A stretch of 34,698 nucleotides of DNA from an uncultured Actinomycetes bacterium (GTDB taxonomy: Bacteria > Actinomycetota > Acidimicrobiia > Acidimicrobiales > RAAP-2): positions 1 to 34,698 of the forward strand of contig CAIORQ010000039.1 of NCBI GenBank assembly GCA_903860745.1, written 5' to 3'. The position numbers and the translations under genes were made by a program. Below are positions 19,697-24,067 of this stretch, piece after piece (the first letter of the stretch is position 1; every line of letters starts with the position of its first letter). Under the pieces are notes generated by a model, which ran no database searches, was not told the origin of the DNA, and saw nothing but the letters and a program-made list of their open reading frames with translations.

Positions 19697-21067
19697 GTGC
19701 CTCAGACGATTCGTCAGACCATTGCCTCGACCAGGGAGTCCTGGGCTCGCTCGAAGACCCTCGAGATTCCTGCGCGCGTCGCCGCGCGACCCGCCGAAGC
19801 GGGCAAGACCCGCGTCGCCTTCCTCGTCTACCGCGGCAACCCCCAGTGTGGCGGCCAGGGGGTCTACACGCGCCACCTCACCCGTGAGCTGGTGCGCCTC
19901 GGCCACAGCGTCGAGGTCTTCTCCGGTCCTCCCTGGCCCGTGCTCGACGAAGGCGTGGGCTTCACGCCGGTGCCCGGTCTCGACCTGTATCGCGACCCCG
20001 ACCCCTTCCGCTGGCCGTCGCCGCGCGAGTTCCACTCGCTGGCCGACCTGGGCGAGTTCCTCATCATGCTCTCGGGCGGTTTCGGCGAGCCCTGGGCCTT
20101 CGCGCGGCGGGTTCGCGCCCTGCTGGGCCCGCGGCGTGGTGACTTCGACATCATCCACGACAACCAGTGCCTGGGCACGGGCGTCTACTCCCTGCACCGC
20201 CGGGGCTGGCCGCTGCTGGAGACCCTGCACCATCCCATCACGGTGGACCGCGCCATCGCCCTGGACCACGCCACGTCCTGGGCGCAGCGCTACAGCACGC
20301 GTCGGTGGTACGGCTTCTTGCGCATGCAGGTGCGCGTCGTGCGGCGCCTGGGCGCGGTCGTGACGGTCTCGCACAACTCCAAGGCCGACATCCACGCCCA
20401 GATGGGCGTGCCCCTGGAACGTCTCACGGTCGTACCGGTGGGAGTCGACCACGAGGTCTTCAAGCCCTACCCCGACGTCGCGAAGCGACCCGGCCGCCTG
20501 ATGGTGACGACCAGTTCGGACGTTCCCATGAAGGGCCTCGTCCCACTGCTCGAGGCCCTGGCCAAGTTGCGCACCGAGCGCGACATCGACCTCGTGGTGA
20601 TCGGTCGGCCCAAACCCGAGGGGCGCGTGGCGCGCAGCATCGAACGGCTGGGCCTGGGCGACATCGTCACCACGGTGTCGGGGGTCAGCGACGAGGACCT
20701 CGCGCGACTCTACGGTGAGGCGCAGGTCGCCATCGTGCCCAGCCTCTACGAGGGCTTCTCCTTGCCCGCGATCGAGGCGATGAGTTGCGCGGTGCCCGTT
20801 GTCGCCACTACCGGCGGGGCCCTGCCCGAGGTGGTGGGCACCGGCGGCGAAGCCGGACTCCTGGTGGAGCCCAACGACCCCGACGCCCTGGTCGCGGCGA
20901 TCCGCACCCTCCTCGACGACGCGCCGCTGCGCGCGCGCCTGGGGGCGGCGGGTCGCGAGCGCGTCATGCGACGCTTCACCTGGGAGGTGACGGCGCGGGG
21001 CAGCGCCGCGTGCTACGACGCCGTCCTGCACGGCACCGCGTTACCGGAGTCGGTGGACTTCACCTGA
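19697..21067 (+). CDS. Family 4 glycosyltransferase
   Basis: The 456-residue protein is a GT-B fold enzyme. The N-terminal half has the acceptor-side motif NPQCGGQGVYTRHLTREL. The C-terminal half holds VGVDHEVFKP, GRLMVTTSSDVPMKGLVPLL, VIGRPKPEG and EGFSLPAIEAMSCAVPVVAT with the E-x7-E motif of retaining GT4 enzymes. It transfers a sugar from a nucleotide-sugar; both sugar and acceptor are unknown. Alternative start GTG 19643 would add 18 residues; I chose GTG 19697 because a GAGAAT -10-like hexamer sits ahead of it, but the start is uncertain. The next gene begins one base into its stop (TGATG). With the methyltransferase and toroid genes it forms a tight operon. Confidence 0.85.
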   Translation: MPQTIRQTIASTRESWARSKTLEIPARVAARPAEAGKTRVAFLVYRGNPQCGGQGVYTRHLTRELVRLGHSVEVFSGPPWPVLDEGVGFTPVPGLDLYRDPDPFRWPSPREFHSLADLGEFLIMLSGGFGEPWAFARRVRALLGPRRGDFDIIHDNQCLGTGVYSLHRRGWPLLETLHHPITVDRAIALDHATSWAQRYSTRRWYGFLRMQVRVVRRLGAVVTVSHNSKADIHAQMGVPLERLTVVPVGVDHEVFKPYPDVAKRPGRLMVTTSSDVPMKGLVPLLEALAKLRTERDIDLVVIGRPKPEGRVARSIERLGLGDIVTTVSGVSDEDLARLYGEAQVAIVPSLYEGFSLPAIEAMSCAVPVVATTGGALPEVVGTGGEAGLLVEPNDPDALVAAIRTLLDDAPLRARLGAAGRERVMRRFTWEVTARGSAACYDAVLHGTALPESVDFT

Positions 21068-21783
21068 TGCTCACCGCTTCGTACGACCGCCTCGGCGTGG
21101 ACGCGGGTGACGCCGTGCTCGACCTGGGCTGTGGATTCGGTCGACACGCCTTCGAGGCCGCTCGACGCGGCGCCCACGTGGTCGCCCTCGACGCCGGACG
21201 CGACGAGGTCGAGGGGGTGCGCGCGACCTTCGCCGCGATGTTCGCGGTCGGCGAGATCGCCGCGACGACACCCGCCGTGGCGGTGCAGGGCGACGCCCTG
21301 GCGCTGCCCTTCGTCGACGGGGCCTTCGACCGCGTCATCTGCTCGGAGGTCCTCGAGCACATCGACGGGGACCTCGCGGCGATGGCCGAACTCGCGCGGG
21401 TGCTGCGCCCGGGGGGCACCCTGGCGGTCACCGTGCCGCGCGAGGGGCCCGAGCGCATCAACTGGGCGCTGTCCGACGAGTACCACAACGTCCCCGGAGG
21501 TCACATCCGCATCTATTCGCGACGCGTCCTCGAGGAGCGACTGGCCTCGGTGGGTCTTCGCGTGAGCGGGCACCACTACGCCCACGGGCTGCACAGCCCC
21601 TACTGGTGGCTCAAGTGTCTGGTGGGAACCACCAACGAGACCAACTGGTTCGTGCGCCAGTACCACCGCCTCCTGGTGTGGGACATCATGAAGCACCCGG
21701 TGATCACGCGGTCCCTCGACGCCGTGCTCAATCCGCTCATCGGCAAGTCGCTGGTGGTCTACGCCCGAAAGCCGGCCTCGTGA
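21067..21783 (+). CDS. Class I SAM-dependent methyltransferase
   Basis: The 238-residue protein has the methyltransferase motifs: VLDLGCGFGRHAFEAARRGA (motif I, residues ~17-36), VVALDAGRDEVEG (motif II region), AVQGDALALPFVDGAFDRVI (motif III), and CSEVLEHIDGDLAAMAELARVLRPGGTLAVTVPRE. The C-terminal third is specific, with HIRIYSRRVLEERLASVGL and a conserved WWLKCLVGTTNETNWFV stretch that probably binds acceptor. It may methylate a sugar or lipid-linked sugar made by the glycosyltransferase just before it. The ATG overlaps the stop of that gene and its own stop overlaps the GTG of the toroid gene, so all three are translated together. An upstream start in the same frame, inside the GT gene, is not needed. 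Confidence 0.88.
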   Translation: MLTASYDRLGVDAGDAVLDLGCGFGRHAFEAARRGAHVVALDAGRDEVEGVRATFAAMFAVGEIAATTPAVAVQGDALALPFVDGAFDRVICSEVLEHIDGDLAAMAELARVLRPGGTLAVTVPREGPERINWALSDEYHNVPGGHIRIYSRRVLEERLASVGLRVSGHHYAHGLHSPYWWLKCLVGTTNETNWFVRQYHRLLVWDIMKHPVITRSLDAVLNPLIGKSLVVYARKPAS

Positions 21784-22856
21784 GGGCGACCGACGTCCTG
21801 GGGGGCGTGCCGGGGGTCTTGACCGAGCAGGAGGTCGCCACCAGTGCGCGCCACCTCGCTGGACTGCAACTGGGCTCGGGGCTGATCCCCTGGTTCCCCG
21901 GCGGGCACGCCGATCCGTGGAACCACGTCGAGTGCGCCATGGCGCTCACCGTCACCGGCCACTACGACGCCGCCGACGCGGCCTACGAGTGGTTGGCGCG
22001 CAACCAGTTGGGCGACGGCAGCTGGTTCAACTACTACCTGGGGGCGGCGGTGAAGGACCCGCGCCTGGACACCAACGTCTGCGCCTACGTGGCGGCGGGC
22101 GTCTACCACCACCTGGTGGTCACCGGGGACGTCGACGCCGCCGCGGCCCGCTGGCCGATGGTCGAGCGCGCCATGGACTTCATCGTGCGCTTCCAGCGCG
22201 CCGACGGTGCGGTCACCTGGTCCCTGGACGCCTCGGGACGCCGGGAGTCCTACGCCCTCTTGACCGGTTCCTCGTCGATCTACCACTCCCTGCGCTGCGC
22301 CGTGGCGCTGGCCGAACGACTCGACCACCACCGGCCGGCCTGGGAGATGGCGGCCGGGCGCCTCGGCCACGCCGTGGTCCACCACCCCGAGGCCTTCGCG
22401 CCCAAGGACGAGTTCGCCATGGACTGGTACTACCCGGTGTTGGCCGGCGCGGTGCTCGCCGACGCCGCCCACGAGCGCCTCGACGCCGGGTGGTCGCGCT
22501 ACGTGATGGACGACTACGGTGTGCGCTGCGTGTCGAGCAATGACTGGGTGACCGCCGCCGAGACGGCGGAGACCGTCTTGGCCCTGGACGCGCTGGGGCG
22601 CCGCGACGAGGCCCTGGGACTCCTCGCCCAGACCGGGCGACACCGCAACGACGACGGCTCCTACTTCACCGGTCTCGTCTATCCCCAGCGAGTGACCTTC
22701 CCGGGGCTCGAGACCAGTTCCTACACCGCCGCCGCCATCCTGCTCGCCGTCGACGCCGTCACCGACTCCTCGGCCGCCGCGGGTCTCTTTCGACACGGCG
22801 TGCTGCCCGACACCCTGGACTGGCCCGAGTCGGGCTGCTCGCTGGGGGCGATCTAG
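21780..22856 (+). CDS. Alpha/alpha-toroid protein, prenyltransferase/squalene-cyclase-like
   Basis: The 358-residue protein starts at GTG 21780, overlapping the preceding stop. It is built from repeated helical pairs of about 50 residues: GSGLIPWFPGGHADPWNHVE, YEWLARNQLGDGSWFNYYLG, FIVRFQRADGAVTWSLDASG, and TGRHRNDDGSYFTGLVYPQ. The QxxDGS/GxW-like turns resemble QW motifs of terpene cyclases and prenyltransferase beta subunits. There is no DxDD catalytic motif of squalene cyclases that I can see, and no signal peptide. The middle has YYPVLAGAVLADAAHERLD. The repeats also fit a glycoside hydrolase-like alpha6 barrel. Its position in one operon with a GT4 and methyltransferase suggests a role in the same modification pathway; I do not know its chemistry. 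Confidence 0.75.
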   Translation: MRATDVLGGVPGVLTEQEVATSARHLAGLQLGSGLIPWFPGGHADPWNHVECAMALTVTGHYDAADAAYEWLARNQLGDGSWFNYYLGAAVKDPRLDTNVCAYVAAGVYHHLVVTGDVDAAAARWPMVERAMDFIVRFQRADGAVTWSLDASGRRESYALLTGSSSIYHSLRCAVALAERLDHHRPAWEMAAGRLGHAVVHHPEAFAPKDEFAMDWYYPVLAGAVLADAAHERLDAGWSRYVMDDYGVRCVSSNDWVTAAETAETVLALDALGRRDEALGLLAQTGRHRNDDGSYFTGLVYPQRVTFPGLETSSYTAAAILLAVDAVTDSSAAAGLFRHGVLPDTLDWPESGCSLGAI

Positions 22857-23477
22857 AGGCGTTGGAGCCAGCGCAGGGAGCCGCAGGCCTCGCGTTCGAC
22901 GAAGGCGCCGCTGGCCAGCGCCGCCAGGTAGATCTCGTGGGGCGCACGACCGCCGTCGGCCGGGTCGGCGAAGACGTCGTGGATCAACAGGGCTCCACCC
23001 CCCACCACCTTGGGGGCCCAGGCCTCGTAGTCCCCCCACGCCACCGCCTCGGCGTGACCCCCCGTCGATGAAGAGCAGGTCGAGGGTCTGTTCGAAGTGG
23101 GCTGCGACGACGAGCGAGGGACCGACGAGCCCGACGACGACGTCCTCGAGGTCGGCGGCCGCGATGGTGCGCTGCCAGAAGGGCAGCGTGTTGAGGCGTC
23201 CGTCCACGGGGTCGACGAGGCTCTCGTCGAAGTACTCCCAGCCCCGCTGGTTCTCCTCGGAGCCGTGGTGGTGGTCGAGGGAGTAGAGCACCGCGCCACG
23301 GCTCTCGGCGGCCGCGCCCAAGAACACGGCCGACTTGCCGCACCAGGCCCCGATCTCGAGCCAGGTGCCCGCGGGGCGCTGGGCGAGCCCGGCGCGGGTG
23401 AGGGCGCGCCCCTCTGCGGGGGGCATGAAGCCCGCGACCCCGTCGGCCAGCGCCAACAGCTCGTCGATGCGGTTCAC
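22853..23477 (-). pseudogene. Class I SAM methyltransferase (Methyltransf_24-like), frameshifted at a six-C run
   Basis: Reading from GTG 23477 the protein has a methyltransferase N-terminus: AGTWLEIGAWCGKSAVFLGA (motif I), YSLDHHHGSEEN (motif II) and DLLFIDGG (motif for the aspartate near the cofactor). Exactly after FIDGG the frame is lost. The rest of the domain, HAEAVAWGDYEAWAPKVVGG and GALLIHDVFADPADGG, continues in the next frame and ends at TAG 22855-22853. The break is at C23058-C23063, where five C's instead of six would give GG-HAEA and a normal protein of 207 residues. A single-base sequencing error, a recent mutation, or a phase-variable tract are all possible. It overlaps the GDT1-like gene by four bases (GTGA) and faces the toroid gene with overlapping stops. 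Confidence 0.85.
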
Positions 23478-24067
23478 GAGGCGGCCAGGCTCACGAAGGT
23501 GTAGACGCCCAGCGCGAGGAAGACGAGTCCGCCACCGAGTCGGATGCGCGCCAGGGGCACCACTCGTTGAAGGCCCTGGCCTGCGAAGGCCCCGAGGAAG
23601 GCCACGGCGATGAGCGCGGCCGAGCAGGCGGCGAAGATCTCGAGGGGCTGGTGGAACTTGGCCTCGAAGTTGGCCGCCTGGATCTGGGTGAGGTCACCGA
23701 ACTCGCCGACGAAGATCACGCTGAAGGCGGTGAACGCCTCGCGGCGCCACGACGAACGCCGCTCGGCGCCGCCGCGTCGTTCGCCGGACTCCTCCTCGGC
23801 CTTCTCCTTGACGAGCAGGAGGTAGGCCGCCCCACCGAGGAACAAGAGTCCCACGAGAACGTCCTTGAGGTGGGCGGGGAGCAGGGTCAGCAATCCTCCC
23901 GCGCCCACCGCGACGCCCATCTGCACGATGAAGCCGCCCGAGGCTCCCACCGCCACCGCGAGGGGACGCGCACGCGTCGACATGACCACGGTGGCGATCA
24001 TCGACTTGTCGGGCAGCTCGAGGACGACGATGAGCGCGAAGACCCCGAGCAGGCCTCCGATGCTCAC
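23474..24067 (-). CDS. GDT1/TMEM165 family membrane transporter (UPF0016)
   Basis: The 197-residue protein has six hydrophobic segments in two homologous halves. Each half carries the family signature E-x-G-D-(K/R)-(S/T): first VLELPDKSMIATV (residues ~15-27; proline replaces the glycine), second VGEFGDLTQIQAANF (~120-134). Between the halves is a charged loop (KEKAEEESGERRGGAE). Family members move Mn2+ or Ca2+ against protons; MneA, Gdt1 and TMEM165 are examples, and in eukaryotes they supply Mn2+ to glycosyltransferases. Its gene lies upstream of, and coupled to, a methyltransferase and next to a GT4 operon, so a metal-supply role is attractive but only an inference. ATG 24065-24067 is the start. 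Confidence 0.85.
   Translation of the reverse strand: MSIGGLLGVFALIVVLELPDKSMIATVVMSTRARPLAVAVGASGGFIVQMGVAVGAGGLLTLLPAHLKDVLVGLLFLGGAAYLLLVKEKAEEESGERRGGAERRSSWRREAFTAFSVIFVGEFGDLTQIQAANFEAKFHQPLEIFAACSAALIAVAFLGAFAGQGLQRVVPLARIRLGGGLVFLALGVYTFVSLAAS

Follow-up and report, generated by a model that had tools for sequence, protein, structure and literature searches.

A probable methylmannose polysaccharide cluster with a variant MmpH ligand site in the actinobacterial order Acidimicrobiales

Gene content of the locus and its relationship to mycobacterial clusters

We analyzed a 34,698-nucleotide stretch of DNA (contig CAIORQ010000039.1 of assembly GCA_903860745.1; hereinafter the window) from an uncultured actinobacterium of the order Acidimicrobiales, in which four genes between positions 19697 and 23477 very probably constitute a methylmannose polysaccharide (MMP) cluster of the form manT-pmeT3-mmpH with a convergent meT1. 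Three of them lie on the plus strand: manT (19697..21067), with a GTG start, codes for a GT4 alpha-(1->4)-mannosyltransferase of 456 amino acids, the same length as at most ManT loci of the genus; pmeT3 (21067..21783) codes for a class I S-adenosylmethionine (SAM) methyltransferase (Methyltransf_11, 2.8e-20), a putative 3-O-methyltransferase; and mmpH (21780..22856) codes for an (alpha/alpha)6 toroid, the candidate MMP endo-mannosidase. Successive genes overlap, as TGATG (21065-21069) at the manT/pmeT3 junction and as GTGA at the pmeT3/mmpH junction. On the minus strand meT1 (22853..23477), a 1-O-methyltransferase gene of the Methyltransf_24 type with a GTG start at 23477 and a frame broken near 23,060, converges upon them, such that its stop codon (22853-22855) overlaps that of mmpH (22854-22856). 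Its start in turn overlaps the stop of a gene for a GDT1-type cation/proton antiporter (23474..24067, minus strand; PF01169, 1.3e-27), a neighbor outside the core cluster. A first-pass annotation, made from the sequence alone, had noted the start-to-stop overlaps of the three plus-strand genes, which the open reading frame coordinates bear out, and a minus-strand SAM methyltransferase facing them with overlapping stops; that arrangement stands, although the gene is not one open frame.

Searches with phmmer against all PDB sequences recovered 7QSG for the GT4 protein (5.6e-123; runner-up 6.5e-26), 7QSJ for the toroid (8e-101, the sole match below 0.001), and 6G7D for the N-terminal piece of the meT1 product (1.1e-38, the sole match up to 0.1). 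The first two are, respectively, ManT and MmpH of Mycobacterium hassiacum (PMC9883506). An AlphaFold2 model of the window's MmpH (mean predicted local distance difference test score, pLDDT, 94.1) likewise placed 7QSJ at the top of a Foldseek search (E 1.8e-40; template modeling (TM) score 0.94-0.98; 1.1 A; 46-47% identity), the next PDB entry being a cellobiose phosphorylase (E 1.5e-9). The remaining product, pMeT3, gave generic matches only among PDB sequences, and the nearest folds to its model are RebM, SpnF, MitM, TleD and AtmM, all generic small-molecule methyltransferases; these neighbors are compatible with a sugar O-methyltransferase without proving that function. Its orthology is indicated by its position between manT and mmpH and by 50-58% identity with its positional counterparts in the five loci of f57, presumably the mycobacterial family, and the one of f84, families whose MmpH carriers here bear the type I fatty acid synthase (FAS-I). 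The complete order manT-pmeT3-mmpH-meT1 is also that of MHAS_04402 (ManT), MHAS_04403 (pMeT3), MHAS_04404 (MmpH) and MHAS_04405 (MeT1) of M. hassiacum and of MAV_2755 to MAV_2758 of M. avium (PMC9883506).

The first-pass annotation had taken these genes for a set lacking known polymer machinery and described function, whose toroid would belong to an undescribed pathway with a perhaps lipid-linked product. This has to be abandoned: ManT, by its match to 7QSG, is a polymerase, the modeled toroid superposes on the known MmpH structure 7QSJ, the set corresponds to the published MMP cluster (PMC9883506), and nothing was found in support of a lipid-linked product. As the cluster is orthologous to the characterized mycobacterial one, no undescribed pathway is called for. 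What survives is its perception that the genes belong to a single conserved functional unit whose most plausible product is a methylated glycan, upheld by orthology and the recurring gene order.

Conservation of the gene order and of neighboring genes

The succession manT, pmeT3, mmpH on one strand recurs at 31 of 35 loci (34 genomes) from the window's genus, 34 of 36 from elsewhere in the order, 24 of 25 from outside it, and 77 of 80 from a named collection; the seven incomplete instances in the first three sets are all at contig ends. That the same succession returns in the genus, elsewhere in the order and in further families of the phylum is more than chance, and the co-occurrence that the first-pass annotation proposed to look for in other actinobacterial genomes is thus found. 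A convergent downstream meT1 is present at 32/35, 28/36, 20/25 and 76/80 loci of the same sets. In the first three sets, 16 loci lack a convergent meT1; a search of nine of the genomes concerned showed that all nine encode the gene farther away or in another orientation. The other seven comprise four at contig ends (L056, L078, L054, L213), one that has meT1 with an mmpH too short to score (L058), one with meT1 on the same strand (L210), and one without meT1 on a short contig (L232).

A tree of ManT, pMeT3 and MmpH (56 rows, quick method, unrooted) groups the sequences by kinship without showing the order as a single clade; the window's genus comes out as a separate, supported group, and nothing in the tree points to recent transfer from the families that bear FAS-I. 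Ten rows with missing, short or stop-bearing genes were left out of it (L211, L203, L214, L031, L043, L044, L051, L054, L228, L232).

The coupling of meT1 to the transporter gene had also been pointed out earlier. The overlap is real in the window, and GDT1 adjoins meT1 (matches of at least 80 bits) at 32/32 loci of the genus and 59 of the 76 named ones, but at only 2/30 elsewhere in the order and 0/21 outside it. Hence, we reject GDT1 as a core member of the pathway, the adjacency being confined mainly to the genus and its near kin. On the other flank, a gene for an acyl-CoA dehydrogenase is divergent from manT at 26 of the 35 genus loci and 40 of the 80 named ones (e.g. L038:3450-4694, minus strand); of the remaining genus loci, four lack a manT match, three offer too little sequence, and two lack the gene despite room for it. 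The window lacks it, as do the 36 other loci of the order. Among the 25 loci from outside the order, three (L209, L213, L217; all f35) have at the corresponding position an acyl-CoA dehydrogenase that is only distantly similar (25-27% identity). A link to acyl-CoA is possible, as is chance.

Active-site residues of ManT and MmpH

The ManT orthologue retains the GT4 donor site: Gly52, His178, Lys279, Glu352 and Glu360 of the window correspond to Gly15, His142, Lys240, Glu313 and Glu321 of the reference enzyme. Residue counts within the order are drawn from 72 loci including the window, at least three of which lack coverage at each site. Glu352 and Glu360 are invariant (66/66), as are Lys279 (65/65) and Gly52 and His178 (63/63). 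Elsewhere the position of Glu321 is occupied by Gln in L206 (f40) and by Ala in one named locus. Asp293 is variable, with 58 Asp, 7 Glu and 1 Arg in 66 loci of the order and more variation outside it.

In MmpH, residue alignment equates Asp45 (21912..21914, plus strand) with Asp47 of M. hassiacum, the putative catalytic acid, and Glu261 and Glu264 (22560..22571, plus strand) with the catalytic base Glu262 and with Glu265. Among covering loci, Asp47 is invariant within the order (69/69) and retained by 23/24 from outside; Glu262 and Glu265 are invariant in both sets (69/69 and 25/25), and Asn101, Met215 and Tyr219 are likewise conserved in the order. The single exception at Asp47, L209, carries Asn there and at position 50 as well, and its mmpH contains an internal stop. 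The M. hassiacum-type ligand site formed with Asp50 and Trp315 is lacking in the window, which has the substitutions Asn48 (21921..21923) and Tyr315 (22722..22724; both plus strand) at the equivalent positions; since PMC9883506 leaves undecided which of Asp47 and Asp50 serves as the acid, we do not regard that site as family-defining.

These substitutions characterize almost the whole order. Of its 69 covering loci, 68 have Asn at position 50, as compared with 17 Asp and 7 Asn in 24 loci outside; position 315 is Tyr in 68 of 69, with Trp in 23 of 23 outside; and Val replaces Phe102 in 57 of 69. The figure of 68/69 is the fair count for Asn50, as it comes from unnamed loci found by whole-protein or profile comparison; the 80 named loci were partly picked by a peptide pattern containing WNH, and their 80/80 Asn50 is biased by that selection. 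As the named and unnamed sets overlap (e.g. L093, L072), their counts are kept separate. The near-universal Asn50 in the order, together with the retention of Asp47, favors Asp47 rather than Asp50 as the likely catalytic acid of MmpH. By the same alignments, the Asn50/Tyr315/Val102 pattern suggests some change in sugar binding.

Points against the assignment and alternative explanations

Several points weigh against the MMP assignment. The structure 6G7D, which we take to be MeT1, is named in the PDB list only as 'Methyltransferase domain protein', and the window's meT1, while homologous to it, is broken in frame. The 3-O role of pMeT3 was still putative in the 2023 account (PMC9883506), and the M. 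smegmatis tags as printed in its methods (MmpH MSMEG_6481, MeT1 MSMEG_6482, pMeT3 MSMEG_6483, ManT MSMEG_6484) would have MmpH and MeT1 swap places. Our literature search found no report of MMP from Acidimicrobiales, and since Asp50, Trp315 and Phe102 differ in nearly the whole order, the exact substrate could differ as well.

The reading furthest from MMP is that of the first-pass annotation, whereby a terpene-cyclase-like toroid acts with a glycosyltransferase and two methyltransferases on an undescribed lipid-linked methylated glycoside. The toroid does show very weak similarity to squalene-hopene cyclase domains of Pfam (0.0026 and 0.01), but PF13243 and PF13249 score 17.3 and 15.4 bits against curated cut-offs of 26.1 and 26.2, the DxDD motif is absent, as had been noticed from the outset, and the sequence and structural agreement with 7QSJ, along with the orthology of the whole cluster to the characterized one, render this proposal vanishingly improbable; a terpene cyclase or prenyltransferase function of the toroid is rejected. 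A GH15-type oligosaccharide amylase was likewise set aside, as TIGR01577 matches with 53 bits over 155 residues against a cut-off of 820.7; this match marks a remote kinship, which agrees with the resemblance to the GH15 fold pointed out in PMC9883506. A second alternative accepts the pathway and supposes that it is decaying in the window's organism, with meT1 a pseudogene and the chains no longer capped at O-1. Consistent with it, the N-terminal part of meT1 (23477 to about 23065) and the C-terminal part (about 23065 to 22853) lie in different frames, the window's genome holds no second copy, and one other of the 161 loci surveyed (window included; matches of at least 80 bits), the named record L107, has meT1 in two incomplete pieces; the best matches in L151 and L152, both at contig ends, and in L205 are short. 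Yet the break falls in a G run of the minus strand, directly after the FID codons (about 23046-23070), where sequence errors are common, in an assembly of 110 contigs; the two pieces retain 74% and 71% identity to an intact relative, the meT1 homologues of relatives are uninterrupted at 51 of 51 loci, and manT, pmeT3 and mmpH are intact. Open homologues in relatives and the lack of another copy leave either an assembly error at about 23,060 or gene loss, and we consider decay of the pathway quite unlikely.

A third explanation stays closer still to MMP and holds that the cluster of the order makes a chemically shifted polymer, altered in length, methylation or acylation, to which MmpH is adapted through Asn50, Tyr315 and Val102. 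PMC9883506 places all three residues in the ligand site of the M. hassiacum enzyme and cites a report of an acetylated MMP from Streptomyces griseus. Of the 66 loci of the order covering both sites, 65 pair Asn50 with Tyr315, and L049 pairs Asp50 with Trp315. However, MmpH retains its catalytic base, Asp47 and Asn101, as ManT does its main donor-site residues, conservative substitutions can be neutral, and six loci outside the order combine Asn50 with Trp315, indicating that the two changes are not strictly coupled. We view such a shift as somewhat unlikely, and retain as the best account of the four genes a cluster for MMP itself or a very close polymer.

Phyletic distribution of the cluster and of FAS-I

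Matches to MmpH were detected in 56 of 61 genomes, comprising the window's own and 60 relatives, and in 54 of the 59 genomes of the order, sampled at one per genus. In a phylum-wide draw they occur in 47 of 296 genomes, including 22/22 from the order and 1/5 from its class outside the order. Two genomes, each 97% complete (G043, G045), have neither MmpH nor a ManT at 1e-60, and the absence of MmpH from them looks real. The named collection yielded at least 592 encoding stretches; the analysis used the best 80, whose titles are mostly those of Acidimicrobiaceae, Acidimicrobiales or actinobacterial metagenome-assembled genomes. Four loci titled as Candidatus Saccharibacteria or Acidobacteria/Acidobacteriota (L112, L089, L106, L150) carry Acidimicrobiales-like MMP clusters and are probably misnamed assemblies.

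FAS-I, sought with the single domain model PF08354, was found in none of the 59 genomes of the order. The model matches ten of the 296 genomes of the phylum-wide draw and, among 14 controls, Corynebacterium glutamicum alone; six of those ten also have MmpH (G097, G109, G133, G155, G273, G336), leaving 41 of the 47 MmpH carriers of the draw without a FAS-I match. The FabF model TIGR03150, used as a marker of the discrete type II system (FAS-II), matches 58 of the 59 genomes, ten of the 59 above its cut-off and several by short weak matches only, with the window's own genome giving a full-length match that, at 430.6 bits, falls short of the cut-off of 493.75. As it also matches 13 of the 14 controls, including the FAS-I-bearing C. 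glutamicum, this model is too unspecific to lend more than weak support to FAS-II in the order.

Functional implications

In the mycobacterial pathway, ManT adds alpha-(1->4)-linked mannose from GDP-mannose to oligomannosides of more than three units, methylated tetra- and pentamannosides being the best acceptors, pMeT3 putatively 3-O-methylates the units so added, and MeT1 caps the 1-OH of the reducing end. The endo-alpha-(1->4)-mannosidase MmpH cuts mature MMP into short primers, which ManT and MeT1 turn into new chains in a partially conservative replication (PMC9883506). By orthology, we propose that in the window's organism ManT would act as the polymerase elongating an alpha-(1->4)-mannan from GDP-mannose, pMeT3 would putatively methylate the added mannose units at O-3, MeT1 would block O-1 of the reducing end, and MmpH would cut the mature polymer to yield primers for new chains. 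Hence, relatives of the window's organism are likely to make MMP or a very close polymer, which presumably binds acyl chains.

In vitro work ties polymethylated polysaccharides to FAS-I (PMC2674218, PMC4555173). As FAS-I was not found in the order with the one model used, MMP, if made there, should not act through it; any acyl-chain role would be with discrete FAS-II-type fatty acid synthesis or with acyl-CoA handling. We tentatively advance, at somewhat less than even likelihood, the combined proposal that MMP is an old and nearly order-wide acyl-chain carrier of Acidimicrobiales operating without FAS-I, with FAS-II or acyl-CoA metabolism in its stead, and that MmpH of this order, with Asn50 and Tyr315 in its active site, is a naturally occurring variant that recycles a methylmannan of slightly different make-up. 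Were this true, the FAS-I-centered view of these polysaccharides would be a special mycobacterial case.

Little is settled about what MMP does in vivo: such evidence for polymethylated polysaccharides was described as missing in 2015 (PMC4555173), and an mmpH mutant has since been found to grow slower at 15 C (PMC9883506, 2023). The near universality of MmpH in an order in which FAS-I was not found therefore offers a natural test of the link between the two, and Asp50->Asn in nearly all its members bears on which aspartate is the acid of MmpH. The pathway as such is already described and the cluster is ordinary in that respect; its moderate interest lies in its distribution and in the function of MMP. 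In the literature searched, neither the variant MmpH site nor the occurrence of the cluster across almost the whole order without FAS-I seems to have been reported. No paper joining methylmannose with Acidimicrobi was found in a search that was thin on subscription papers and excluded supplements, and the main text of PMC9883506, whose survey takes in mycobacteria and a few of their actinobacterial relatives, does not mention Acidimicrobi.

Comparison with known systems

The 6-O-methylglucose lipopolysaccharide (MGLP) is glucose-based and built by other enzymes. Like MMP, it is a polymethylated alpha-(1->4) polysaccharide, and a similar role has been proposed for it (PMC4555173). The acetylated MMP of S. 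griseus is a 3-O-methylmannose polysaccharide (PMC9883506, PMC4555173). Family f52 of the phylum-wide draw has MmpH and no match to FAS-I, and at its eight loci meT1 lies some kb away or is not in the fetched stretch. The closest counterpart is the MMP cluster of nontuberculous mycobacteria (PMC9883506), which the window matches in four orthologues, in their folds and main catalytic residues, and in the gene order of M. hassiacum. It differs from that cluster in belonging to another order of the phylum in which FAS-I was not found (59 genomes), in the Asp50->Asn, Trp315->Tyr and Phe102->Val replacements typical of MmpH in its order, in the joining of GDT1 to meT1 in its genus, and in the frameshift of its own meT1.

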